The notes: generated by a model from the sequence alone, not told the origin. A stretch of 31,736 nt of DNA from a virus (IMGVR_UViG_3300025102_000148:1-31736); one strand, 5' to 3'; numbered from the stretch's first letter, positions 2,429-31,736 are shown. Made by a program: numbers and translations.

Positions 2429-3858
2429 TGTCCGCTGTTGATGTGATCAATTTACCCAACGGGGGTCTAGCTTCCTTTCTTTCATCTAATTTAGATGAGA
2501 TTGATGACAGAACCTTAGCGTTTGGTCAGCAAAGCGGTTTAAATTCTTTTGACGAAGTTGCGCAAAAAATGGTTTCTTTTGGTAGAAACGGTGACGATAA
2601 ACTTATTCATGCCAAAACTGGGGAGCTTGTTGTTTCTCCAGAAATTTTAGAAGAAAACCCAGAGCTTGCATCAAAACTTGCGGAAGGTTTTAAAAACTCC
2701 GACGTTGATATGGCAAGATATATTGTTGGTAATGAAAACAATAGCATAAATCCCTTTACGGGGCAGTCCGAGTTTTTTCTCAAAAAACTTGTATCTGGCG
2801 TAAAAAAACTAACGAAAAAAGCTTTTAACGTTGTTAAGAAAATTGCTCCTGTAATTTTACCTTTTGCAATCAATGCCATAGCGCCGGGTTTGGGCTCTAT
2901 AGGTGCTGGTGCGTTAGGCGCGGGCCTCGGCTCCTTAATGCAGGGAAAGAGCGTCAAAGACAGTCTTAAATCTGCTTTAATTGGTGGCGCTATAGGGGGT
3001 TTGACGGCGGGCTTTAAAGGCATGACAATGGAAGGTGGATCCTTCGGTCAAGGATTGGAGCAGTTTGGTATGCCAAAAGGTATGCTCGGAGGAACGGGTC
3101 AACCTATTATTGGTGGGGAACTTGCTCAGCAAGCAGCCGACCGAGCTGCTGGCAGCAGCTCTAATTTCGTAGGGGATGCTGTAAATAAAACAGTTCAATC
3201 AGGAAAAGACTTTTATAATTATTTAACGCCTGATGCCTCCAGTTTGCAGCAGGCTAACTTTGAAGCGGCGAAACAAGCAATGGGAACAGACGCGTTTAAT
3301 GCACTTAAGTCCGCTGAGAAATTTAAAATGTTCGAAGCGGCGACGCCGACCTTCATGCAGCAATATGGTAAGCTTGCCTTAGCAGGCGGCGCAGGGGCTG
3401 CGGCTCTCGGCGCTTTTGATCCACCTGACCAAAGCGATTTAAATGTTGCGGGGTACGATCCCAACGACACCGCAGAAAAAAGATTGGAAGAAAACGAAGG
3501 AAAATATCGAGTAGGCGTTCCCGTAAATCCTCCGGTTTATGTGGGAAAAGAAGATGTTCTTCAACAATACCCTGACGAAGATTTTAAAATTGCATCAAAT
3601 TATCTAAAACGACCTATTTTTAATATACCTCCCGTATCGGCAGCGGCGGGTGGGGAGATGCAAAATTTTCCTCGGCGTTTGGGAGCAATTGCGGGAGCGG
3701 GCACAGAAACTTCTGATGACGTCCCTGCAATGCTTTCAGATGGCGAATTTGTTATGACGGCTCGTGCTGTTCGTGGGCTAGGTAATGGAAGTAGAAAAGC
3801 GGGTGTTAAAAAAATGTATGATTTAATGTCTAGATTTGAAGGAGGGGCAAGGGCATGA
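2428..3858 (+). CDS. putative internal virion / DNA-ejection protein A
   Basis: The ATG at 2428 is preferred because it overlaps the previous stop (TAATG) and follows an AGGAGAG ribosome site; the in-frame open region begins at 2335, inside the previous gene. The 476-residue product has a basic stretch (KKLVSGVKKLTKKAFNVVKK) followed by a hydrophobic Gly/Ala-rich segment (about 145-200) able to insert in membranes, then a helical region. A C-terminal DDVPAMLSDGEFVMTARAV motif (from about residue 430) is one I associate with marine-phage structural proteins. Placement before three more large ejection-type proteins suggests a role like T7 gp14-gp16 or P22 gp7/gp20. Homology to those is not visible. 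Confidence 0.6.
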   Translation: MSAVDVINLPNGGLASFLSSNLDEIDDRTLAFGQQSGLNSFDEVAQKMVSFGRNGDDKLIHAKTGELVVSPEILEENPELASKLAEGFKNSDVDMARYIVGNENNSINPFTGQSEFFLKKLVSGVKKLTKKAFNVVKKIAPVILPFAINAIAPGLGSIGAGALGAGLGSLMQGKSVKDSLKSALIGGAIGGLTAGFKGMTMEGGSFGQGLEQFGMPKGMLGGTGQPIIGGELAQQAADRAAGSSSNFVGDAVNKTVQSGKDFYNYLTPDASSLQQANFEAAKQAMGTDAFNALKSAEKFKMFEAATPTFMQQYGKLALAGGAGAAALGAFDPPDQSDLNVAGYDPNDTAEKRLEENEGKYRVGVPVNPPVYVGKEDVLQQYPDEDFKIASNYLKRPIFNIPPVSAAAGGEMQNFPRRLGAIAGAGTETSDDVPAMLSDGEFVMTARAVRGLGNGSRKAGVKKMYDLMSRFEGGARA

Positions 3859-20015: not shown

Positions 20016-20276
20016 ATGGATACAAAAAAATGGGCAAGTGTGCTTGTTCCACGGGAAACCTACGAGGAGCTGGTGGCTGTCGCTTTCATTGAAGGGCGCA
20101 CGATTGGTGGTCAATTGCGCATGATGTTTGAATTTTGGAAAATTAAGAACCTTACACCAAATGATTTAAAGGTTGTTGAGGTTCAAAAAGAAAAAAATAA
20201 AGCGGCTAGGGACAAAGCTAAAAAAGAAGAGCTCGACACTGCCGCCAGAGAAGAATTAGATAAAATAGTTATCTAA
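20016..20276 (+). CDS. ribbon-helix-helix DNA-binding candidate
   Basis: An 86-residue protein. Residues 4-45 fit an RHH fold: strand KKWASVLVP, helix RETYEELVAVAFIEG, then helix TIGGQLRMMFEFWK. The remaining half is a charged helix (QKEKNKAARDKAKKEELDTA) that may form a coiled coil. RHH dimers often bind tandem operators spaced about one helix turn, and such a tandem box lies 31-48 bases upstream, so it may regulate itself and other phage promoters. The fold call is by pattern only. Its stop overlaps the convergent gene by four bases. Confidence 0.65.
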   Translation: MDTKKWASVLVPRETYEELVAVAFIEGRTIGGQLRMMFEFWKIKNLTPNDLKVVEVQKEKNKAARDKAKKEELDTAAREELDKIVI

Positions 20277-20669: not shown

Positions 20670-20895
20670 CAGGTCTAATCCTCGGTCTAATTAATCTCGA
20701 CACTTTATCAGTAGTCTGGCACGTCATCATAATATCATTGCCATAAAGGTCGTACAGATGGTTGTAGATACCATCTGCACTTCCGCTATTCATGGCCGAC
20801 GCGCAATGTTTCTCGCTTTCAAACCAAACCGCAGTGTCAATCTTTTGATCCTGTACACTATAGGAAATCAAAAGAGCCGTAAAATACTCAATCAT
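20656..20895 (-). CDS. small protein of leftward operon, unknown function
   Basis: A 79-residue protein; the ATG at 20895 follows GGAGGGCCGT. The N-terminus is hydrophobic (MIEYFTALLISYSV) but too short for a clear membrane helix or signal peptide. The middle has AVWFESEKHCASAMNSGSAD and the end is basic and Pro-rich (SRLIRPRIRPDGG). Similar short proteins occur in marine phage genomes, but I cannot name a function. It overlaps the membrane-HTH gene upstream by four bases. Confidence 0.65.
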   Translation of the reverse strand: MIEYFTALLISYSVQDQKIDTAVWFESEKHCASAMNSGSADGIYNHLYDLYGNDIMMTCQTTDKVSRLIRPRIRPDGGT

Positions 20896-21302
20896 ACGGC
20901 CCTCCAAATCAAAACGCCCACAATAATGACGGCTATAAGCAATGCCCAGATAACCATGCGCTTGCGCTTTTGAATTTCTGTTTCCGCCACCAGTTGCCCC
21001 TGAACAGAACGCTCGACAGCTTCAACAAAGGGATCGACCTTCGGCTTTTCTATCGTGCGAATGCGATCGCGCGCCACGGGCATTTTTTTGTTAGCTTTAG
21101 CATTATCGGCTTTAACATTTGCTTTAACCCATTTGGTCACCTCAGTTTTAGCCCAGTGCTTTTTGTTCTTCAGTTTTTCTGGGACATACATTGAATCGAC
21201 GGGTGGTGGAAAGGTCTTGAGCCGTGTACGACGGTAAATGGTTTGTACAGATAAACCAGTGAGCTCGACGACTTGGTCGATATTTAATAATTGTTTTGGC
21301 AT
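20892..21302 (-). CDS. membrane-anchored helix-turn-helix protein
   Basis: A 136-residue protein with AAGGAGGAAAC before the ATG. The N-terminus (LLNIDQVVELTGLSVQTIYR, then RTRLKTFPPPV) is an AlpA/excisionase-type winged HTH, with TEVTKWVKANV as the usual following helix. A charged linker (about 60-110) leads to KRKR and one hydrophobic helix, residues 116-133. Positive residues before the helix predict a cytoplasmic N-terminus, that is, DNA binding tethered at the membrane. Possible jobs include holding phage DNA at the membrane or regulation. The combination is seen directly; its function is unknown. Confidence 0.75.
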   Translation of the reverse strand: MPKQLLNIDQVVELTGLSVQTIYRRTRLKTFPPPVDSMYVPEKLKNKKHWAKTEVTKWVKANVKADNAKANKKMPVARDRIRTIEKPKVDPFVEAVERSVQGQLVAETEIQKRKRMVIWALLIAVIIVGVLIWRAV

Positions 21303-23684: not shown

Positions 23685-23930
23685 ATGGCAAATAAATTAG
23701 AAAATATGATTATAGACGCTAAAGTCACAACCGAGGTCATATCCGATGCGCTCGATGAGTGCTTCGGTTATGATTGTGAGCCCCACGTCGTCTATACATC
23801 AGCACTTCAAACAGTCCTGCTTAGCATGCTCCAACAAACCAACGATAAACAAAGCGTCATAGACGCGGCCAAGTTTTGTATAACAGCCGCATCCCTCATA
23901 GACGAATTAGATGAAAGCACCATCCACTAA
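23685..23930 (+). CDS. small helical protein
   Basis: An 81-residue protein from ATG 23685, chosen over an in-frame GTG at 23670; the ribosome site is weak. It is acidic and helical (NKLENMIIDAKVTTEVISDA, then CEPHVVYTSALQTVLLSMLQ). Its stop overlaps the next start (TAATG). No family is recognised. Confidence 0.62.
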   Translation: MANKLENMIIDAKVTTEVISDALDECFGYDCEPHVVYTSALQTVLLSMLQQTNDKQSVIDAAKFCITAASLIDELDESTIH

Positions 23931-24118
23931 TGATTTTTATAAATAAACAAAAAAACCTTATCGACGTCGTGTCCTCTCGCAAAGCTGCTGAAAAAGAATA
24001 CGACGATATCGTTTGGGATTACGGGGTCAACGACCCACGGCTCGCGGAGCTCGCAAATCAGATCCAAGAATATGAAGAGCTCGAAAAGGAAGGCGTCACA
24101 ATTTCACCTAATTTTTGA
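23930..24118 (+). CDS. small charged coiled-coil protein
   Basis: A 62-residue protein started by TAATG overlap, with a helical body (RKAAEKEYDDIVWDYGVNDP, then RLAELANQIQEYEELEKEGV). It ends one base before the first parS site. Function unknown. Confidence 0.6.
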   Translation: MIFINKQKNLIDVVSSRKAAEKEYDDIVWDYGVNDPRLAELANQIQEYEELEKEGVTISPNF

Positions 24119-24134
24119 TGTTTCACGTGAAACA
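24119..24134. promoter_or_regulatory. parS: parS site 1 (ParB-binding centromere)
   Basis: TGTTTCACGTGAAACA is a perfect 16-bp palindrome identical to the consensus chromosomal parS of most bacteria. Three identical copies in 32 kb of phage, all between genes, are far beyond chance. No ParB gene is visible in the window, so host ParB is the likely ligand. Confidence 0.9.
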
Positions 24135-24166
24135 ATTTAAAATCGTTTAAAAACAAAGGTTTAAGG

Positions 24167-24183
24167 TGCGACAATATGTCGCA
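24167..24183. repeat. 7-bp inverted repeat between two parS sites
   Basis: TGCGACA (24167-24173) and TGTCGCA (24177-24183) around ATA. It could be an operator half-site pair. Its TGCGAC core also appears in the hairpin at 14395-14416. Confidence 0.5.
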
Positions 24184-24213
24184 TCGTAAATATTAGTAAA
24201 CCGTGATACTCTT

Positions 24214-24238
24214 ACGTATCAAACAAAGTTTGATACGT
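24214..24238. repeat. 11-bp inverted repeat between two parS sites
   Basis: ACGTATCAAAC (24214-24224) and GTTTGATACGT (24228-24238) around AAA form a perfect inverted repeat. No T-run follows, so it is more likely an operator than a terminator. A TTGACA (24242-24247) follows, giving a possible repressor site at a promoter for the peptidase-like gene. Confidence 0.6.
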
Positions 24239-24273
24239 TATTTGACATCGTTGATTTTAGCCGACTAGGGCAA

Positions 24274-24289
24274 TGTTTCACGTGAAACA
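24274..24289. promoter_or_regulatory. parS: parS site 2
   Basis: A second identical TGTTTCACGTGAAACA, 155 bp from site 1 (start to start), in the same intergenic region and 48 bases before the peptidase-like gene. ParB spreading from here could also silence that gene. Confidence 0.9.
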
Positions 24290-24336
24290 ATTGAACCCGA
24301 TAATGTCTATTCCAACTTAACAATGAGGTTAATATT

Positions 24337-25083
24337 ATGGTTAAAATAAAACCAGTTAACAATACAACCAGCGACACAAATCGGTATTGCGGACCGGCTG
24401 TGATCAGCGCTGTAACGGGAATGACTACAGGAGAAGCTGCAAGGCTGATCCGACATGTCAGCGGTCAAAGGAAAGTGACAGGTTCTCATACCTTCCACGT
24501 TCTTCGGGCCATGTCACTTTGCAACATTCAAAATGTTAAAACGACGGTTACTACCAAACCAACGTTAGCTCAGTGGCTCAAAGGTTCAAAAGACATTCGA
24601 ACCTCTGGCCGAGTTTTCCTGATCGTTGCAGGCAATCACTTTCAGTTGGTCGAAGGCCGACGGTACGTTTGCGGAAGAACACGAGACATAGTCAGCGTTC
24701 GAAGCAAGTATGTGAAGCGAAGGTGTCGAGTCGAAACGGTTCACGAGCTAATCAACGAAGGTAAAATACAAATACCAAACGCAGCTCGTAAGCCTAAGAC
24801 CGTGGACCACGCGGCCAGTAACAGAGCCAAAGCACAACGCTTTGCTAAAAAGCTGGACGTCAAAATCAATATCGAAAGATACTATGATTATGACAACCGC
24901 TTCTCCCAGTATTGGGTCGATGGATACAAAGACGTCGATACCAAGGGCGAGCCTATGGACTTTTCTCACGAAGGGATCCTCGATGGCCACTGCGCTTACG
25001 ACTGGGGCGAAGTTCTTGAGAAGCTCTCTGCTATCGAAGGTTATCGCGAAGAACATGGGTACAATGTTAAGGAGGGCGTGTAA
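24337..25083 (+). CDS. C39/papain-like cysteine-peptidase candidate
   Basis: A 248-residue protein with TGAGGT before the ATG. NRYCGPAVISAVTGMTTGEA (Cys18) looks like the nucleophile helix of C39/papain-like peptidases, and GNHFQLVEGRRYVCGRTRD supplies His101 with Asp117 as a possible third residue. These are in the expected order, and spacing fits a small peptidase core of about 130 residues. The C-terminal half is basic, then acidic and aromatic (IERYYDYDNRFSQYWVDGYK), with no known domain. It has no signal peptide, so it would act in the cytoplasm on a phage or host protein. An amidase or inactive fold is possible. Confidence 0.6.
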   Translation: MVKIKPVNNTTSDTNRYCGPAVISAVTGMTTGEAARLIRHVSGQRKVTGSHTFHVLRAMSLCNIQNVKTTVTTKPTLAQWLKGSKDIRTSGRVFLIVAGNHFQLVEGRRYVCGRTRDIVSVRSKYVKRRCRVETVHELINEGKIQIPNAARKPKTVDHAASNRAKAQRFAKKLDVKINIERYYDYDNRFSQYWVDGYKDVDTKGEPMDFSHEGILDGHCAYDWGEVLEKLSAIEGYREEHGYNVKEGV

Positions 25084-25358
25084 TGAACATTTCCTTTGAA
25101 CCCTCCTATGAGCTCGATGACTTCGATAAAAAAGTAGCCGATGAATTGGAATACCATTTCTACGGTTCGAGCGCCTTCGATTGGATAGCCGATGTAAACT
25201 TCCAAGAAGTATACAAATACTTATCCAATAGAACTCCGAAGGGATCGTCTTTCCAAGTGTTTTTTGTACCAGTTCACGTTAAGGTCGGGTACAAGATACT
25301 TAACAGCACCCCACAAGACGTAGACGCACATTGGTTAGGCACCTACCATGTAGAATAA
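25083..25358 (+). CDS. hypothetical protein downstream of peptidase candidate
   Basis: A 91-residue acidic protein started by TAATG overlap, so coupled to the peptidase candidate. It contains YELDDFDKKVADELEYHFYG and, later, FQVFFVPVHVKVGYKILNST, a mixed alpha/beta pattern. It could be a partner or substrate of the upstream protein. No family is recognised. Confidence 0.65.
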   Translation: MNISFEPSYELDDFDKKVADELEYHFYGSSAFDWIADVNFQEVYKYLSNRTPKGSSFQVFFVPVHVKVGYKILNSTPQDVDAHWLGTYHVE

Positions 25359-25364
25359 ACAACG

Positions 25365-25391
25365 AACCCCGCTTCACGGCGGGGTTTTTTT
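25365..25391 (+). terminator. intrinsic terminator
   Basis: AACCCCGC (25365-25372) and GCGGGGTT (25379-25386) enclose a 6-base loop and run into seven T. It ends the transcript of the peptidase pair. Confidence 0.92.
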
Positions 25392-25419
25392 ATGCCATGT
25401 TACATAAAAGGAGGATACC

Positions 25420-25626
25420 ATGTCAAAAATTAGAAAAATAAAAAAAGAAGGCAATTTGCCTGATTACTACTATGTGCTGCCAAACAAGGATCGGATCGAC
25501 ATTCTTGTTCTGCGATCCAAAAGAGGAAATACATATACAATGCACCTCCCGCAGCCGCACGGCGTTAAAGTCTTTCATAAGATGAACGAAATGCGCGAAT
25601 TCCTGATCGCGGCCTTCGGTACATAA
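25420..25626 (+). CDS. small basic protein
   Basis: A 68-residue protein with AAGGAGGATACC before the ATG, one of the best ribosome sites here. It is basic at the N-terminus (MSKIRKIKKEG), then beta-rich (YYYVLPNKDRIDILVLRSKR) with a short C-terminal helix. It lies behind a terminator with no obvious promoter in the 28-base gap. Function unknown; a nucleic-acid-binding protein is possible. Confidence 0.65.
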   Translation: MSKIRKIKKEGNLPDYYYVLPNKDRIDILVLRSKRGNTYTMHLPQPHGVKVFHKMNEMREFLIAAFGT

Positions 25627-25932
25627 TAAACGCCTTATATGTATATACGGCCAGAAAAATAAAAAAAATAATTTTTCAAAAAGTAGCCGCAACCAGTGTA
25701 ACCGTGTAACTTTCCTTAATTCTCCTTATTATATAAGGACTTATTAGTTACAAAGTTAGTTACACTGTTTTTTGGCAGGTGTAACCGTGCTTAATGGGCG
25801 AAAGTCGTTATGCGGGTTTTAAAATAAAAAAAATAATTTTTGTTTTTCTGGCTATATATACATAAAGCGTGTTTACAAGAATATATCCTTTGGTTTAGAG
25901 TGAACTTACTTTATTTTACGAAGGAGAAAAAA
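25627..25932. other. noncoding repeat region upstream of small terminase; possible origin
   Basis: No gene is seen in these 306 bases. Imperfect inverted arms (25631-25659 and 25843-25869) enclose a 21-bp perfect direct repeat, AT-only, at 25656-25676 and 25821-25841. Between them GTGTAAC occurs three times forward (25696, 25704, 25779) and once inverted (25759), and a 7-bp inverted repeat (25723-25729 / 25733-25739) is present. Iterons beside AT-rich DNA suggest a replication origin or a control region for the terminase; a miniature mobile element is the alternative. Confidence 0.55.
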
Positions 25933-26571
25933 ATGAATAAAGCGGATCGTTATGTCATTCCTGAAGGTGCCGAGCGCCCTAAGAAAAAATACCTGAAGAA
26001 ATACTTACCCGAAGATAAACCGTTAAACAGGCGCGAAGAGCTTTTTGTTAAAGAGCTCGTGTCAAAAGATGGTCAGATAACATTGCGCGATGCAGCGACT
26101 AACGCGGGATATCCTGCTAAGTCTGCGCACGTGCGAGCTCATGAACTCACTAACCCTGCAATTAAACCCAACGTTGTTAAAGCGATTAAGCAATATAGGG
26201 CCGAGCTGGATCAAAAGTATGGCGTCGAATATAAACGGCACCTTAAAGACTTACAAACGATCCGCGATGCTGCATTAGATAACGGCGCGTTTAGTGCTGC
26301 CGTCCAAGCCGAATACCGTCGAGGGCAAGCGCAAGGGGATATTTACGTCAATAAATCTGAAATACGGCATGGAACTATTGATAGCATGTCTAAAGAAGAA
26401 GTGTTAAACGCTATTAAAGAGCTAAAGCAAACATATGACCCAGTCACTATTGACATCACTCCCGTCGAAAAAAGCGACAAAAACCGCGACAAAGCCAGAG
26501 AGCGCGTTTTGGGGACAGTTTCGGAAAAAAGTGATGATGCTGCGGAAGTCTTGGAAAATGGAGAGGATTGA
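25933..26571 (+). CDS. terS: terminase small subunit
   Basis: A 212-residue protein; the ATG at 25933 follows AAGGAGAAAAAA, and upstream in-frame sequence is noncoding in character. Residues about 35-80 (LNRREELFVKELVSKDGQIT, then LRDAATNAGYPAKSA and RAHELTNPAIKPNVVKAI) match the Terminase_2 DNA-binding domain. The middle is helical and likely the oligomer core; the C-terminus is charged and probably contacts the large subunit. It recognises the packaging site. It is unusual in being separated from the large subunit by 4.65 kb, and its last 137 bases may encode the start of a nuclease in another frame. Confidence 0.85.
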   Translation: MNKADRYVIPEGAERPKKKYLKKYLPEDKPLNRREELFVKELVSKDGQITLRDAATNAGYPAKSAHVRAHELTNPAIKPNVVKAIKQYRAELDQKYGVEYKRHLKDLQTIRDAALDNGAFSAAVQAEYRRGQAQGDIYVNKSEIRHGTIDSMSKEEVLNAIKELKQTYDPVTIDITPVEKSDKNRDKARERVLGTVSEKSDDAAEVLENGED

Positions 26572-26920
26572 AAACTGGGCGGGGCTTGGTTTTCCTGACG
26601 TTTTCATAAACGCGGACGGGCAGTTTCACTTGTTGGAATTGAAATATTCTGAGCATAACGCGGTAAAGCTGCGACCTCATCAAGTATCTTTTCATAGCCG
26701 CAATCAAAACGGTTCAAGTTGGATATTGGTTAAGCGAGCGCCTGAAAATAAAACAGCTGGATATGAAATGTGTCTTTACCATGCATCGCAGGCTATTGAA
26801 GTATCTCAAAACGGTTTAAAGACAAAACCAAAGTATAAACAGAATAGTCGGGATAATTGGGAAAATCTTTTTGACGCAATAACAAAACAAAAAGAGGCGC
26901 CGCAATGCTTTGGCTATTAG
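26435..26920 (+). CDS. PD-(D/E)XK nuclease, VRR-NUC / resolvase-like
   Basis: A nuclease candidate of up to 161 residues. GLGFPDVFI and HLLELKYSE give the G-x-PD...ExK core, and KLRPHQVSFH matches the Gln helix of VRR-NUC enzymes. SAFWGQFRKKVMM and RIENW before the core also look like the family, so the start is probably at or near 26435, inside terS. ATG 26534 or 26558 would shorten it and lose part of the domain. There is no good ribosome site at any of them, so coupling to terS translation is likely. It probably cuts branched DNA before or during packaging. Confidence 0.75.
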   Translation: MTQSLLTSLPSKKATKTATKPESAFWGQFRKKVMMLRKSWKMERIENWAGLGFPDVFINADGQFHLLELKYSEHNAVKLRPHQVSFHSRNQNGSSWILVKRAPENKTAGYEMCLYHASQAIEVSQNGLKTKPKYKQNSRDNWENLFDAITKQKEAPQCFGY

Positions 26921-27033
26921 ACTATTTTGCTAAATGGCTGGATAGGGGTGAAACAGATATAGATAAAGAGCTGAAACAAGTTTATGAGAGATTAGGCTGG
27001 GATCGCCATGATGATGACAAGCGGGGCAAATGA
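26905..27033 (+). CDS. 42-residue small protein
   Basis: ATG 26905 follows AAGAGG and overlaps the nuclease gene by 16 bases; its stop is inside the terminator stem. The product starts MLWLLDYFAKWLDRGETDID and ends DRHDDDKRGK: an amphipathic N-terminal helix, acidic middle and charged end. Function unknown. Confidence 0.55.
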   Translation: MLWLLDYFAKWLDRGETDIDKELKQVYERLGWDRHDDDKRGK

Positions 27034-27046
27034 GCCCCGTTTTTTT
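27022..27046 (+). terminator. intrinsic terminator after terS-nuclease genes
   Basis: CGGGGC (27022-27027) pairs with GCCCCG (27034-27039) and is followed by seven T. It separates the packaging-linked genes from the clamp gene. Confidence 0.9.
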
Positions 27047-27107
27047 ATTTGACAAAAAAAGCTGCATAGTTTACGGGTTTTTACATAATTAGTTTATGGA
27101 GGTCAAA

Positions 27108-27791
27108 ATGACTAATGCAAAAATAACTATTAATCCAAAATACCTTAAAGCCGCAATGATATGCGCATCAACGGAGGGAACCCGATATTATTTAAACGGC
27201 GTTCATTTTATTATTACGCGGAATTGGGTCCGCTTAGTATCAACAGACGGGCATCGCGCTTTTTATTTTAAAGATGAATTGGAAGTGACTACCCGCTCCG
27301 CTTTTCCAGATAATAAGTTGGATTTAATAGTCGATTTAAAAGACTTAAAAAAAGCTTTAACAGGCATAAAAGTTAATTCTGGGGATATTGAAATTAACTT
27401 TGAAAAAGAGCATGCCATAATTAATGGCGTGCAATGTCAGTATATTGACGCAACTTATCCAGATACTACCCGCATAATTCCACAGATCGATAGCCAGCCA
27501 GAATGTTATCAAAAATTAGACGGCAAGCCTTTTGAAATACAATTAGATCCTATTTATGTTGGTGACTTTGGTAAAATGGCTAAATTGCTTGGAATAAGTC
27601 CTGCCAAAGTTTTTATTAAAAAGTTTGGTTTAAGCCCTGCAATTGTAAATTTTGGATCAGAATATAATTGCTTTGCGTTGGTTATGCCAAAACGTACTTT
27701 AGATGAGATGGGTTCGGGAATAGCTTTTCATACAATGCAGTCGATTGCTTCGACCGTTGTTAATAAACCCCAGCTAAGGGAGGCGTCTTAA
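27108..27791 (+). CDS. two-domain DNA polymerase beta-clamp-like protein
   Basis: A 227-residue protein; ATG 27108 follows GGAGGTCAAA and is preferred over ATG 27096, which lies upstream of that site. GTRYYLNGVHFI (24-35) and VRLVSTDGHRAFYF (about 41-54) reproduce the most conserved part of DnaN domain 2. YPDTTRIIP matches the end of that domain (FPDYRRVLP in DnaN), and the region near residue 200, CFALVMPKR, resembles the DnaN C-terminus (MPMR). Domain 1 of the usual three is absent. A two-domain subunit would need to trimerise, like T4 gp45 or PCNA, to close a six-domain ring. It probably tethers PolA. It is coupled to the next gene by TAATG. Confidence 0.8.
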   Translation: MTNAKITINPKYLKAAMICASTEGTRYYLNGVHFIITRNWVRLVSTDGHRAFYFKDELEVTTRSAFPDNKLDLIVDLKDLKKALTGIKVNSGDIEINFEKEHAIINGVQCQYIDATYPDTTRIIPQIDSQPECYQKLDGKPFEIQLDPIYVGDFGKMAKLLGISPAKVFIKKFGLSPAIVNFGSEYNCFALVMPKRTLDEMGSGIAFHTMQSIASTVVNKPQLREAS

Positions 27792-28192
27792 TGTATGAGG
27801 TTTATAAATGGGAACGGGACCAACTTGATCAAACGTATTGGGCAGGCAAGGGGAAGCACGAAAAGAAATTAGAAATTTTGCACGATCTAATAGACGATCG
27901 AATTGTTTATAAAAGAACGTTATCCCCTTGCGGCTATTATTACACTTCAACTAAGGCTTATATGCCCAGTTCACAAAAAGGCGGGAAAAATTGGCGTTTG
28001 GAGCAATTAAGACGGGCAAAAAATGCTTATTATCGTTTGTTTAATGATGGAGATTATAATCAACTTTTTGGCAATGCTTTAAAAGAATTGCCGCCTTTAA
28101 TGGGTTATCGCTCACTTTGCCCCAGAAATATTGACCGTGTTATAGATCTAAAAATTAAGCGCGCTTGGAATGAGCAATTCGTGAATTTATAA
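27791..28192 (+). CDS. hypothetical protein coupled to clamp-like gene
   Basis: A 133-residue basic, Tyr-rich protein started by TAATG overlap. It has a helical charged N-terminus (YEVYKWERDQLDQTYWAGKG), a middle with CGYYYTSTKAYMPSSQKGGK and a helical basic C-terminus (DRVIDLKIKRAWNEQF). No membrane helix or active-site motif is recognised. Coupling suggests a link with DNA replication or clamp function; this is only positional. Confidence 0.65.
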   Translation: MYEVYKWERDQLDQTYWAGKGKHEKKLEILHDLIDDRIVYKRTLSPCGYYYTSTKAYMPSSQKGGKNWRLEQLRRAKNAYYRLFNDGDYNQLFGNALKELPPLMGYRSLCPRNIDRVIDLKIKRAWNEQFVNL

Positions 28193-28195
28193 AAA

Positions 28196-28255
28196 ACTTG
28201 CCATTTACTGAAATTTACTATTTAACTTAGGGCGGGGTAAAACCGCCCCTTTTTT
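28196..28255 (+). repeat. intergenic module copy A: TTTACT box plus terminator
   Basis: A 30-bp box (28196-28225) containing ATTTACTGAAATTTACTATT is followed by a stem-loop (GGGCGG 28230-28235, CCGCCC 28243-28248) and six T, then a GAGGT ribosome site. It differs from copy C by one base in the 30-bp box. Box, terminator and ribosome site recur in this order before three gene groups. Confidence 0.78.
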
Positions 28256-28268
28256 ATGAGGTCAAAAA

Positions 28269-28652
28269 ATGAAAGTACATCACACGAAATACAAGCCGCG
28301 TTATGAGGCGTTTATTCTGGAAAATTTAGATTTTGATTATGATGGTAAACTAATACACGTGAAGCCGTCTAAAGATGAAAAAATCAGATATTTGGCCAAA
28401 CGTTTTAAACGCGAGAAAAAATGGCAAATTGAGCAGGACGGCGTCCGCCCCGCTTTAATTGATTGGCTGGCAGGCATCGCGCTGCCTATTCCCGTTTATA
28501 ACGGGGATATAATAGAACTAGCGGAACGCTTGGGCTCAATAGACAAAAACCCCAGCGATCAACTTATAGAACGGGTTTTAGAAAATTATTTCCCATTTAT
28601 GGCTAATATTATTTTGAATATGGAAGGTTTCACAAAATGTTTGAACGATTAA
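28269..28652 (+). CDS. hypothetical protein behind module copy A
   Basis: A 127-residue protein with GAGGTCAAAAA before the ATG. It is basic at the N-terminus (VHHTKYKPRYEAF) with a helical C-terminal half (WLAGIALPIPVYNGDIIELA and later LIERVLENYFPFMANIILNM). It has a hydrophobic patch but no clear membrane helix. It overlaps the next gene by 16 bases. No family is recognised; the size and pattern recall small phage accessory proteins. Confidence 0.65.
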   Translation: MKVHHTKYKPRYEAFILENLDFDYDGKLIHVKPSKDEKIRYLAKRFKREKKWQIEQDGVRPALIDWLAGIALPIPVYNGDIIELAERLGSIDKNPSDQLIERVLENYFPFMANIILNMEGFTKCLND

Positions 28653-29062
28653 ATTTATTTCACACGCCAGAAGATTGGCAGGAATTGCACGCTAAAATCG
28701 AAGAGCACGGCGGCGGGGAAAGAACGGTTGCAACGCTTTTTGCTGCAATGGGCTGGAATTTAGCAATTAGCTTGTTTGATAAAGCAGGAAGCGATCAAAC
28801 CCGCCCCAGCGGATTGGTTCCCGAAAAGCTTAATTCATTTCCCGTTTTAGCTAAAGCGCCATATCATGGCAGGATTGGCGGAGATTATGCCGTTTTAGTA
28901 CGTCGCAACGATAATGAGCTGCACCCCTACGTCGTTGCACATTGGAATAAAGACGCGAAAACGAATTGGAATTGGGGCAATTATTTTGAGACTTATGAAA
29001 ACGCTTTAGAGTGTTTCATTAAAAAGAGCTCAAAACAAACAAGCGAAGCAAAAACGGGTTAA
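28637..29062 (+). CDS. hypothetical protein, second in its gene pair
   Basis: A 141-residue protein with GGAAGG before the ATG, overlapping its neighbour by 16 bases. It contains HTPEDWQELHAKIEEHGGGE, TVATLFAAMGWNLAISLFDK (a hydrophobic helix) and a Trp-rich C-terminal region (PYVVAHWNKDAKTNWNWGNY). The end is basic and Ser/Lys-rich. No family is recognised. Confidence 0.65.
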   Translation: MFERLNLFHTPEDWQELHAKIEEHGGGERTVATLFAAMGWNLAISLFDKAGSDQTRPSGLVPEKLNSFPVLAKAPYHGRIGGDYAVLVRRNDNELHPYVVAHWNKDAKTNWNWGNYFETYENALECFIKKSSKQTSEAKTG

Positions 29063-29063
29063 A

Positions 29064-29123
29064 CTTTACATTTACTTAAATTTACTGTTTAACTAAGGGG
29101 CGGGGCAATCCTGCCCCTTTTTT
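29064..29123 (+). repeat. intergenic module copy B: TTTACT box plus terminator
   Basis: The box at 29064-29097 contains ATTTACTTAAATTTACTGTT, followed by GGGGC (29102-29106) and GCCCC (29113-29117) and six T, then GTGAGGT and a start codon. It is the most divergent of the three copies but keeps the two TTTACT elements 10 bp apart. Confidence 0.75.
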
Positions 29124-29137
29124 AATGTGAGGTAAAA

Positions 29138-29281
29138 ATGATTGAAGTGACCAAAAAACAAATAGACGCTTTACATAAAGAGGCGTTTGAATTGGAAAAT
29201 AAAGCAAATAGCCTGCGGCAAAATTTGATAGATTTACAATGGAAAATTAACGCGCTTATACATCCAGAAAAGGGAGATTAA
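29138..29281 (+). CDS. 47-residue coiled-coil microprotein
   Basis: ATG 29138 follows GTGAGGTAAAA in module copy B. The product is one charged helix (MIEVTKKQIDALHKEAFELE, then NKANSLRQNLIDLQWKINAL), a clear heptad pattern. It is the first gene behind the module and probably real, but function is unknown. Confidence 0.65.
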   Translation: MIEVTKKQIDALHKEAFELENKANSLRQNLIDLQWKINALIHPEKGD

Positions 29282-29285
29282 AAAA

Positions 29286-29549
29286 ATGGCTTATATTTGT
29301 TTTAAACGCGATTGGTGGAGGGATAACCCCAAATACCCAAACGGCTTAGAGCCCTGCGCAGGGCCTAAGAGCTATTATAAAAATCAAGTTTTTGATTGCG
29401 AGCAGGAAGCGCGCGAATTTTGCCAAGAATATAATGAAAATAATGACGCTGGGCGCTATTCCCGAAAAATGGAATTTGAAGAGCTGGACTTGCGAGTAGT
29501 GACCCCGCGCGCCCATGCTGCCCCAAAATATCAACGCTATAATTTTTGA
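29286..29549 (+). CDS. small aromatic-rich protein
   Basis: An 87-residue protein four bases after the microprotein stop, with GGGAG before it. ICFKRDWWRDNPKYPNG begins it, followed by CAGPKSYYKNQVFDCEQEAR and a basic end. The Trp/Tyr/Cys-rich N-terminus hints at a compact fold, perhaps metal-binding. No family is recognised. Confidence 0.65.
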   Translation: MAYICFKRDWWRDNPKYPNGLEPCAGPKSYYKNQVFDCEQEAREFCQEYNENNDAGRYSRKMEFEELDLRVVTPRAHAAPKYQRYNF

Positions 29550-29560
29550 GGGGTTTTAAA

Positions 29561-30046
29561 ATGTTAGATCAAGAGGGATTTTCAAAAACAGAATTACAAG
29601 ATGCGTTCGTTCGCGTTTTCGATGATTGCAACGGAAATTTAACCGATCAAGATTTAGAACGGTTGCGCCGTTTTGAATTGATCGAAGTTGAACATTTAAA
29701 AACCATTTCTGGCCGCAATGAATTATGGCCAGATCAAAACGATGATAGCAAATTTATTTATTGCCAAATGTCCGCCCGTTTTAACGCCCGCCAATCAAAT
29801 AATCATATTCAGGATCATTTAAGATTATTCGAGCGCCGTTTGGCGAATACATGGTGTTATTTTTTTGGGGTTGGCCGTTGCCATTGCTCGCACGATTGCT
29901 GCGGGTGCGCGTTTGATCAATGGACTACATGCACAATAGAGCCCCATTCAATCGGGGTTTTTAGCCTTCCAGATAGCGCTTATAATAAAAACCACCAATA
30001 CCAGCTCGTTTTTAATATTGAGCATTGCATAGGCTATAATCACTAA
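29561..30046 (+). CDS. Cys-rich hypothetical protein
   Basis: A 161-residue protein; ATG 29561 follows GAGGGG and is preferred over a TTG at 29546. The N-terminal half is acidic and helical (QDAFVRVFDDCNGNLTDQDL). The C-terminal half contains VGRCHCSHDCCGCAFDQW and later CT and EHC, a cluster of Cys and His able to bind one or two metals. This suggests a zinc-binding protein whose job is unknown. Confidence 0.65.
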   Translation: MLDQEGFSKTELQDAFVRVFDDCNGNLTDQDLERLRRFELIEVEHLKTISGRNELWPDQNDDSKFIYCQMSARFNARQSNNHIQDHLRLFERRLANTWCYFFGVGRCHCSHDCCGCAFDQWTTCTIEPHSIGVFSLPDSAYNKNHQYQLVFNIEHCIGYNH

Positions 30047-30047
30047 A

Positions 30048-30107
30048 ACTTGCTATTTACTGAAATTTACTATTTAAATGGGGCTGGGGCATTCCCGCCC
30101 CTTTTTT
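30048..30107 (+). repeat. intergenic module copy C: TTTACT box plus terminator
   Basis: The box at 30048-30077 matches copy A at 29 of 30 positions. A stem (GGGGC 30080-30084, GCCCC 30097-30101) and six T follow, then GTGAGGT and the next start. Same order as copies A and B. Confidence 0.78.
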
Positions 30108-30122
30108 ATGTGAGGTAATCAA

Positions 30123-30359
30123 ATGAATAAAGAACGCAGAAAAATCATTAAAGACGTCATTGAAAAGCTGGATGATGCACATGCTAAACTCGAAGAGGTA
30201 TACGAGGCGGAGCAGGAAGCGATTGAAAACATGCCTGAAAACTTGCGCTATTCAACTAAAGGCGAAGAGCGCGAAGAAATCGCGGACAATATTGAAGAGC
30301 ATATGAACGCTGTTGATAGCTTACGTTGTGAGCTGGAAGAAATCGCGGAGGGCGCGTAA
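30123..30359 (+). CDS. acidic coiled-coil protein
   Basis: A 78-residue protein with GTGAGGTAATC before the ATG. It is almost entirely charged helix (KIIKDVIEKLDDAHAKLEEV and later ADNIEEHMNAVDSLRCELEE), the pattern of a two-helix coiled coil. Similar short proteins are common in phages but have no agreed function. Its stop overlaps the next ATG. Confidence 0.68.
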   Translation: MNKERRKIIKDVIEKLDDAHAKLEEVYEAEQEAIENMPENLRYSTKGEEREEIADNIEEHMNAVDSLRCELEEIAEGA

Positions 30360-30538
30360 TGGAAGCTTTTTATCAAAATAGAAATTTGCGTTTAAAACGC
30401 GTCTTTTTTAAAAAAAGAGAAATTGAACTAATCAAGATTGGTTTGGATCATTTAGTTAATGACAATAAAATAAAAATACCCGCCAAAGATAAGCTTACCC
30501 TTAGCGCTTTAATAAGGGATTTTAAGGGTAGCATGTAA
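30359..30538 (+). CDS. 59-residue basic protein
   Basis: A short gene started by TAATG overlap. The product is basic (FYQNRNLRLKRVFFKKREIE, then LIKIGLDHLVNDNKIKIPAK) and helical, with no motif I recognise. It could bind nucleic acid. It is the last gene before the long noncoding stretch. Confidence 0.62.
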   Translation: MEAFYQNRNLRLKRVFFKKREIELIKIGLDHLVNDNKIKIPAKDKLTLSALIRDFKGSM

Positions 30539-30585
30539 ATATCCCCAGTTCGCGCATCCAGCGCGCTTATAAGCTTTCAAAACGT

Positions 30586-30616
30586 ATCCCCGCTAGAAAT
30601 GGCGGGGATTTTTTTT
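30586..30616 (+). terminator. intrinsic terminator after the accessory gene block
   Basis: ATCCCCGC (30586-30593) pairs perfectly with GCGGGGAT (30602-30609) around an 8-base loop, followed by a run of eight T. Confidence 0.93.
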
Positions 30617-30681
30617 ATCTATGTTAAAAACCGGTAAAACAGCGCCCCGCGCGCCGTCCCCAGTTATCCTAAAACTTATGG

Positions 30682-30895
30682 GCTGGCAGCGCGAACGGCG
30701 GCAGCTGCCGCTCGATGTTGTATTTTAATTCCCGTGTTTGTTTGTTTGTTTGTCATCTTTTGACATACAGCCAGCGCCCCAGATCCGCGCGCCGCGTGCC
30801 GCGTTCGCTGGGGATTGGCGCCAGATCCAGCTGGCCGTTCTACTGGGGAAAATGTGCAACATCGAGCGGCAGCCGTCGCGTTTTTCGCTGCCAGC
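30682..30895. repeat. 39-bp inverted repeat in GC-rich noncoding block
   Basis: Arms 30682-30720 and 30857-30895 are equal in length with no gap needed. The inner 17 bases (GCTGCCGCTCGATGTTG at 30704-30720) and outer 10 bases (GCTGGCAGCG at 30682-30691) pair perfectly, 33 of 39 overall. The 136-base loop contains CCCCAG/CTGGGG pairing (30777-30782 / 30808-30813) and (TTTG)n. CCGCGTGCCGCG (30792, 30906) and CCAGCTGGCC (30827, 30891) are repeated directly. Confidence 0.75.
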
Positions 30896-31081
30896 TGGCC
30901 ATGATCCGCGTGCCGCGACTAGGGGCCCCAGCTCCAATAGAGGCTAAAAAATGCAGCAAAAACAACGATTTAAGCAGCAAAAATTTTTACCCCATCCCCC
31001 CCACACGCGCGCATAAAGTGCATGTTCGTCACTAACAATACAAAAATAAAATTATACGAATATTTTCAATCGGTTATGGAA

Positions 31082-31097
31082 TGTTTCACGTGAAACA
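31082..31097. promoter_or_regulatory. parS: parS site 3
   Basis: A third perfect TGTTTCACGTGAAACA, about 6.8 kb from site 2 and 127 bases before the terL start codon. ParB bound here would sit next to the packaging genes. Confidence 0.9.
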
Positions 31098-31181
31098 TCG
31101 TAAAACGTAAAAAGGTTTGCATGTTTCAGTTTTGCTGGTAAAAGTTTGGGTATAAAAATTTTTAAAAATTTAAAACATATC

Positions 31182-31199
31182 ATCTTATAAAATCTTATA
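31182..31199 (-). promoter_or_regulatory. tandem TATAAGAT boxes upstream of terL
   Basis: ATCTTATA at 31182-31189 and again at 31192-31199, 10 bp apart, is the reverse complement of the box pair at 23078-23095. It lies 25 bases before the terL start codon, in AT-rich DNA. No clear -35 element is seen, so it may be a regulator site or a phage-specific promoter. Confidence 0.5.
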
Positions 31200-31223
31200 C
31201 GGTGATACGTTTCAGGAGCCTCG

Positions 31224-31736
31224 ATGCCGACTATAAATTCCGAGAATGCCAGCGAAAGATTACTGAAGCTTCAATATCGGTTGGCGCAGATCGAAAAAAA
31301 GGAGCGGTCATACGAAGATTTCCTTACTTTTGTGAAACTTATGTGGCCAGAATTTATTGCAGGAAACCACCATAAGATAATCGCAGATAAATTGCAGAGG
31401 ATCGCATCTGGCGAATTAAAAAGATTAATCGTCAATATGCCTCCGAGACACACGAAGTCTGAGTTTGCATCCTTTTTGTTTCCCGCGTGGATGATGGGAC
31501 GCAATCCCAACATGAAGATCATTCAGGCGACGCACACAACCGAGCTCGCGGTGGGCTTTGGTAGAAAAGTTAAGAACCTTCTGGACAGAGACGACTACAA
31601 AGAACTTTTTGACACGCGATTAGCGGCAGACTCAAAAGCTTCTGGACGTTTCGACACGGATCGCGGCGGCATGTACTATGCTGTTGGTGTGGGCTCGAAC
31701 TTAGCTGGTCGTGGTGGTGATCTGGTGATTATTGAT
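31224..31736 (+). CDS. terL: terminase large subunit (5' part, cut by window end)
   Basis: The first 171 codons are visible; AGGAG precedes the ATG. NMPPRHTKSEFASF (about 73-86) is the Walker A-like ATPase motif typical of phage terminases, ATHTTELAVGFGRKVKNLL is the following conserved block, and DLVIID at the very end is the beginning of Walker B. The protein would be the ATP-driven packaging motor with a C-terminal nuclease not seen here. It is preceded by a parS site and tandem TATAAGAT boxes and is separated from terS by accessory genes. Confidence 0.93.
   Translation, partial: MPTINSENASERLLKLQYRLAQIEKKERSYEDFLTFVKLMWPEFIAGNHHKIIADKLQRIASGELKRLIVNMPPRHTKSEFASFLFPAWMMGRNPNMKIIQATHTTELAVGFGRKVKNLLDRDDYKELFDTRLAADSKASGRFDTDRGGMYYAVGVGSNLAGRGGDLVIID

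Follow-up and report, generated by a model that had tools for sequence, protein, structure and literature searches.

The presence of perfect parS sites, the loading sites of the chromosomal partition protein ParB, in a virus with no ParB gene in view raises the question of what a phage does with a bacterial centromere. In the window, meaning here the whole analyzed stretch of 31,736 nt, TGTTTCACGTGAAACA is found three times as a 16/16 match, always between genes: at 24119-24134 (site 1, or A1), 24274-24289 (site 2, A2), and 31082-31097 (site 3, B); neither the sites nor the gaps around them are assigned a strand. The ParB loading site is among the most conserved DNA words of bacteria, and all 16 bases of the sites in the window agree with the parS consensus. 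The exact matches described in the initial annotation, three perfect parS between genes, were recovered at these positions.

Sites 1 and 2 are 155 bp apart and share an intergenic gap of 218 bp (24119-24336). A small ORF of 62 aa without a Pfam match (23930-24118, plus strand) ends at the base adjoining site 1, and an ORF of 248 aa without a family match (24337-25083, plus strand) lies directly 3' of the two sites. Site 3 lies in a gap of 685 bp (30539-31223) upstream of the terminase large subunit gene terL, 142 bp before its start at 31224. Because intergenic DNA makes up just 2,049 of the 31,736 bases in the gene list of this analysis, the intergenic location of all three sites is itself unlikely. 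The 16-mer had also been called improbable by chance in this window, and shuffling bears this out: even when up to three mismatches to TGTTTCACGTGAAACA are allowed, 0.12 matches are expected per window, and no shuffle contained the four that are observed, the sole additional one being at position 20045. Chance or base composition as the source of the sites was ruled out by these shuffles and by three control palindromes, whose counts are given below. The folding of 24119-24336 has a z-score of -5.9 against shuffles (DNA parameters), which comes partly from pairing between the two identical palindromes. This gap also contains two more inverted repeats, TGCGACAATATGTCGCA and ACGTATCAAAC...GTTTGATACGT, and given these it may double as an origin or a regulatory region.

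The polymerase, primase, helicases, terminase, and tail or ejection genes of the window match phage families. They include a DNA polymerase I-type phage polymerase (17867-19825, plus strand; PHROG 17, E = 4e-117), used as the query for finding relatives, a terS-like terminase small subunit gene (25840-26571, plus strand; PHROG 51, E = 1.6e-8, with Pfam Terminase_2 below the cut-off), and terL (31224-31736, plus strand; PHROG 38, E = 1.8e-39), which is cut by the record end. The nearest named relatives are the Pelagibacter phages HTVC027P and HTVC023P, phage 023Pt_psg01, and phage DSL-LC04, with identities of 48-55% in the polymerase and 48-61% in the available part of TerL. The window phage shares its polymerase, primase, helicase, and terminase set and its synteny with the HTVC023P-type pelagiphages, which are recognized by common PolA, primase, helicases, and terminase and a genome of 57-62 kb. 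The window phage is a marine virus and, judged from this gene content, an HTVC023P-type podophage; the window, whose virus record is incomplete, covers half of such a genome. The isolates from SAR11 differ from it in their sites: HTVC023P has none, and HTVC027P has one single-mismatch site elsewhere (16412). HTVC027P, a cultured relative, is described as lytic (PMC12753301). Host assignment through the genome bins of TerL relatives was tried and discarded as too unreliable, the bins being Rhodobacteraceae, Maricaulis, Verrucomicrobia, and others.

Other intergenic elements were also observed in the window. Three near-identical cassettes of 75-76 bp (28193-28268, 29063-29137, and 30047-30122) each run from an A+T-rich TTTACT...AAATTTACT block through a hairpin that is rich in G+C and carries a T run to GAGGT and the next gene, and they look like repeated terminator and promoter modules. 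Promoter-like motifs number 19 against 16.4 expected, all of them consensus matches only. An Rfam search returned no matches.

No ParB gene had been seen in the window, and the domain search agrees: ParB_N (PF02195) was not found in the window, in 14 other relatives, or in the relative G034 from IMG/VR (59,661 bases), which is ~84% identical along the window. The two ends of G034 share a 101-bp overlap that is 99% identical, so that it is a circularly complete assembly. Because the window record is incomplete, the ParB and ParA content of its unseen half was judged from this genome. The search of the remaining genome for ParA and ParB, proposed in the initial annotation, found neither in G034, and on the strength of this complete relative a copy of either gene outside the window was rejected; a ParA-type ATPase (PF13614) was not found in any of the genomes tested, complete G034 included. 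Tyrosine integrase (PF00589) was likewise not found in the window, G034, or the relatives, and the idea of a temperate phage or plasmid-prophage was rejected for a clade without this enzyme. Nothing points to a plasmid state, as integrase and ParA were not found and HTVC027P is described as lytic. The use of host ParB is the simplest account, since the sites are perfect and no phage ParB was found.

Absence of the sites from close relatives, named in the initial annotation as evidence against its reading, was looked for. In G034, parS sites at 3643, 3799, and 10943 reproduce all three sites in the layout of the window, and sites 1 and 2 are also kept in L126 (5655 and 5810). The terL-proximal site is in the same place relative to terL in G034, L009, and L209, and about 20 further relatives have it at a distance of 33-143 bp. 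Over the wider clade, a near-perfect site lies 33-190 bp upstream of terL, and it is present in relatives with 65-90% TerL identity. The flanks are unalignable between subclades; the 16 bases of the site are identical. Conservation while the flanks diverge, as expected of a chromosomal-type parS under selection, is therefore observed here. Departures in the terL-proximal site take the form TGTTCCACGTGGAACA or TGTTCCACGTGAAACA, at the paired position 5/12, and the TGTTCCACGTGAAACA form, on either strand, is also the only site in some SAR11-family chromosomes.

Thirty-one clade members, most of them obtained by polymerase or terminase homology searches and not by the parS scan, were scored within 300 bp upstream of terL: 15 have a site with 0-2 mismatches, 16 have at least 5 mismatches, and none is intermediate. 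As a sequence pattern, this split is that of a functional word present or absent, not of gradual decay. In the terminase tree, which includes rows from the parS scan so that site frequencies are not readable from it, the site is clustered, yet it has been gained or lost several times. Since roughly half of the clade manages with no site at terL, its benefit is conditional. Four low-GC members (GC < 0.40) have no site in the sequence examined, a hint that it depends on the host. Most phages tied to SAR11 lack the site despite the single parS of SAR11 chromosomes, and its function is therefore dispensable or host-dependent.

Two smaller features were seen beside terL. L154 (19537-19576), L099, and L335 have a pair of parS variants with TTTCACGTGAAA and TTCCACGTGGAA cores, separated by 24 bp, immediately upstream of terL. 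In most relatives, the start codon of terL is immediately preceded by a small AGGGGCCCC-type palindrome, which overlaps the ribosome-binding region; it is seen at 31214-31223 in the window and in L009, L103, L121, L155, and others.

The packaging block begins with terL, and a site 33-190 bp upstream of it is what would be expected if ParB clamps controlled transcription there and served as a genome-copy timer for the late operon. A single genome would be coated and its late operon repressed, and replication would dilute a fixed host ParB pool until the late genes were released. ParB spreading silences genes in some systems. However, the site is 34-46 bp downstream of a conserved promoter-like TTAAC in one subclade and ~49 bp upstream of it in another, a flip unusual for an operator, and a fixed operator was rejected on this ground. 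Sites 1 and 2 moreover precede unrelated genes, and in other phages the sites are located elsewhere. Control of the terL operon is possible, and the timer is an unlikely reading overall, if the least unlikely of the alternatives. A combined form, in which ParB beside terL would count genomes, keeping a lone copy partitioned and late-silent until dilution, with many unrelated lytic phages having converged on this, is slightly more doubtful still.

The intergenic sites upstream of genes could also be operators of another phage or host DNA-binding protein that resemble parS and nothing more. The window encodes an AlpA-like helix-turn-helix (HTH) protein (20892-21302, minus strand; Pfam PF05930, E = 8e-5) and a second HTH protein. 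The AlpA-like protein is the best phage-encoded candidate for a binder, though its presence is inconsistent in parS-bearing relatives. The HTH genes are absent from some of these relatives, and a dedicated phage regulator was rejected because these genes do not co-occur with the sites. An operator of this kind would also have to fit the parS consensus at 16 of 16 bases and to be the same exact 16-mer in unrelated phages of Firmicutes and Alphaproteobacteria without ParB. This explanation is quite improbable.

The parS is not specific to the window phage, as judged from genome collections: it is common to its relatives and to unrelated phages. In IMG/VR, an exact-match search of 2.9 million virus contigs gave at least 120 stretches with parS, while the control palindromes gave 1 (reversed), 9 (two outer bases swapped), and 2 (permuted). 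In the 120 listed stretches, 81 of 146 sites fall outside ORFs of at least 100 aa, though such ORFs span 84% of the bases. About a third of these 120 are phages with related terminases. They include a second phage group (L019, L046, L055, and L077), whose TerL is ~27% identical and which has 2-5 exact parS around terL; L046 has its closest named relatives in a Manatee Spring virus and the Roseobacter phages CRP-901/902. ParB_N was matched in just 4 of the 40 parS-bearing records tested, and mislabelled host chromosome was rejected on this count as the main source of these contigs.

Matches to at least 17 bases of the extended site occur in 212 INPHARED records, compared with none for the control; the 212 are not independent, since they comprise near-identical families of Microbacterium, Gordonia, and Lactobacillus phages, and they include assembled "Listeria phage" contigs of doubtful origin. 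No Enterobacterales phage is among the most frequent names; Escherichia, Klebsiella, and Salmonella are neither among the ten most frequent names nor among the matches listed. To our knowledge, these Enterobacterales hosts lack chromosomal ParB, which is otherwise nearly universal in bacteria. The extended parS was also observed in genomes of ~5-6 kb, namely the bajarodino viruses PQ006097-PQ006178 and several Microviridae, with up to 6 sites per genome. In many related Microbacterium phages (e.g., NC_047988.1, 43533-43550), the match is within a gene whose annotated product is a helix-turn-helix DNA-binding protein.

Five unrelated cultured phages carry 2-4 parS each: DSS3P8 (host Ruegeria), B103 (Bacillus subtilis), Lpa804 (Lactobacillus), Arian (Butyrivibrio), and vB_BcoS-136 (Bacillus cohnii). 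None of the five has a ParB_N match; DSS3P8 has tyrosine integrase matches. In cultured phages, sites are found far from the packaging genes, which bears on the idea that the palindrome is a packaging (pac/cos) or replication-origin element whose parS match is unconnected to ParB. Proximity to terL in the clade and again in the group with TerL ~27% identical is in line with that idea. Two of the three sites in the window are nevertheless 7 kb from terL, the site is ~1 kb away from it in G004 and L047, and a packaging signal is not expected to match host parS base for base. Such an element is the least probable of the explanations, and very improbable.

The number of sites is relevant to a further alternative, in which replicated phage genomes would act as decoys that titrate host ParB, and SMC with it, freeing resources or upsetting host segregation. 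Several phages have 2-5 sites per genome, and the hundreds of copies late in infection would exceed the host sites in number. On the other hand, a single site per genome is enough in several relatives, a decoy has no need for placement at terL, and blocked segregation is of little use to a lytic phage. Decoys are improbable on balance, and both titration and unrelated operators are considered less likely than positioning and partition of the phage genome.

The interpretation in the initial annotation is supported in part. The recruitment of host ParB by the phage, as put forward there, is well supported by sequence comparison, through conservation, enrichment over controls, the failure to find ParB or ParA, and the recurrence in unrelated phages. 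The presence and position of the sites, their conservation and recurrence, and the lack of a detectable ParB, ParA, or tyrosine integrase are direct observations on the genomes. The three palindromes are very probably true loading sites of host ParB. At parS, ParB loads as a CTP-dependent clamp, which slides on DNA and on which ParA acts (PMC12704722). By analogy with this established biology, from which binding, clamp loading, and sliding are inferred, host ParB would recognize the phage parS in the infected cell, the phage itself supplying no ParB, and would load as CTP-dependent clamps that slide into the adjacent kilobases of phage DNA. Host ParA, and possibly SMC, would then treat the phage genome as an origin region. 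The incoming genome would be kept at the host segregation machinery, resulting in good placement of its copies, and these could be retained if the cell divides or slows its growth before the lytic programme ends. The purpose of the sites is the weakest part of this explanation: the chance that they serve positioning or partition, and not gene control or titration, is about even. The full explanation, in which genuine parS load host ParB and the phage genome is thereby positioned or partitioned, is favored with modest confidence.

Host-type parS are apparently far more widespread in phages than the searched literature states; the literature search found none on phages beyond the case of phi29. 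If phages routinely carry parS, host genome positioning, inheritance, and condensin loading would be within easy reach for them, with persistence without integration as a consequence. The cultured pairs of DSS3P8 with Ruegeria pomeroyi, B103 and relatives with Bacillus subtilis, and Lpa804 and relatives with Lactobacillus plantarum suit direct tests.

Among known systems, the bacterial chromosomal parS is a 16-bp palindrome identical to the sites in the window, and one exact or one-mismatch copy is found in 20 of 31 SAR11-family genomes. The sites in the window differ from it in being on a virus genome, in several copies, and not adjoining parAB. Phage-plasmids, such as P1 with ParABS, N15 with Sop, and mycobacteriophages with ParABS, also have centromere-like sites on a phage genome, but there the ParA, the ParB, and the sites are all the phage's own, whereas the sites here are of the chromosomal type and neither protein was found in complete G034. 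In alphaproteobacterial phages, sites of the host cell-cycle protein CtrA lie between phage genes as parS does here and have been proposed to defer lysis (PMC9437464); CtrA is a transcription factor, whereas ParB is a partition clamp. The closest parallel is the phi29 family, which is lytic like the window phage, has no detectable ParB, and uses or carries host-type parS; B103, a member of this family, has one exact parS and one with a single mismatch. Spo0J, the Bacillus ParB, is reported to help trap the genome of phi29 inside the spore (Meijer et al. 2005, as cited in PMC9437464), which by analogy offers a precedent for host ParB use by a lytic phage. phi29 is unrelated to the window phage and acts in sporulation with Spo0A, whereas the window phage shows no sign of a sporulating host and has its site upstream of terL. 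With host-type parS present and a phage ParB not found, the phages described here are best read as lytic phages that exploit host ParB, a probable variation on the theme of phi29 and Spo0J.
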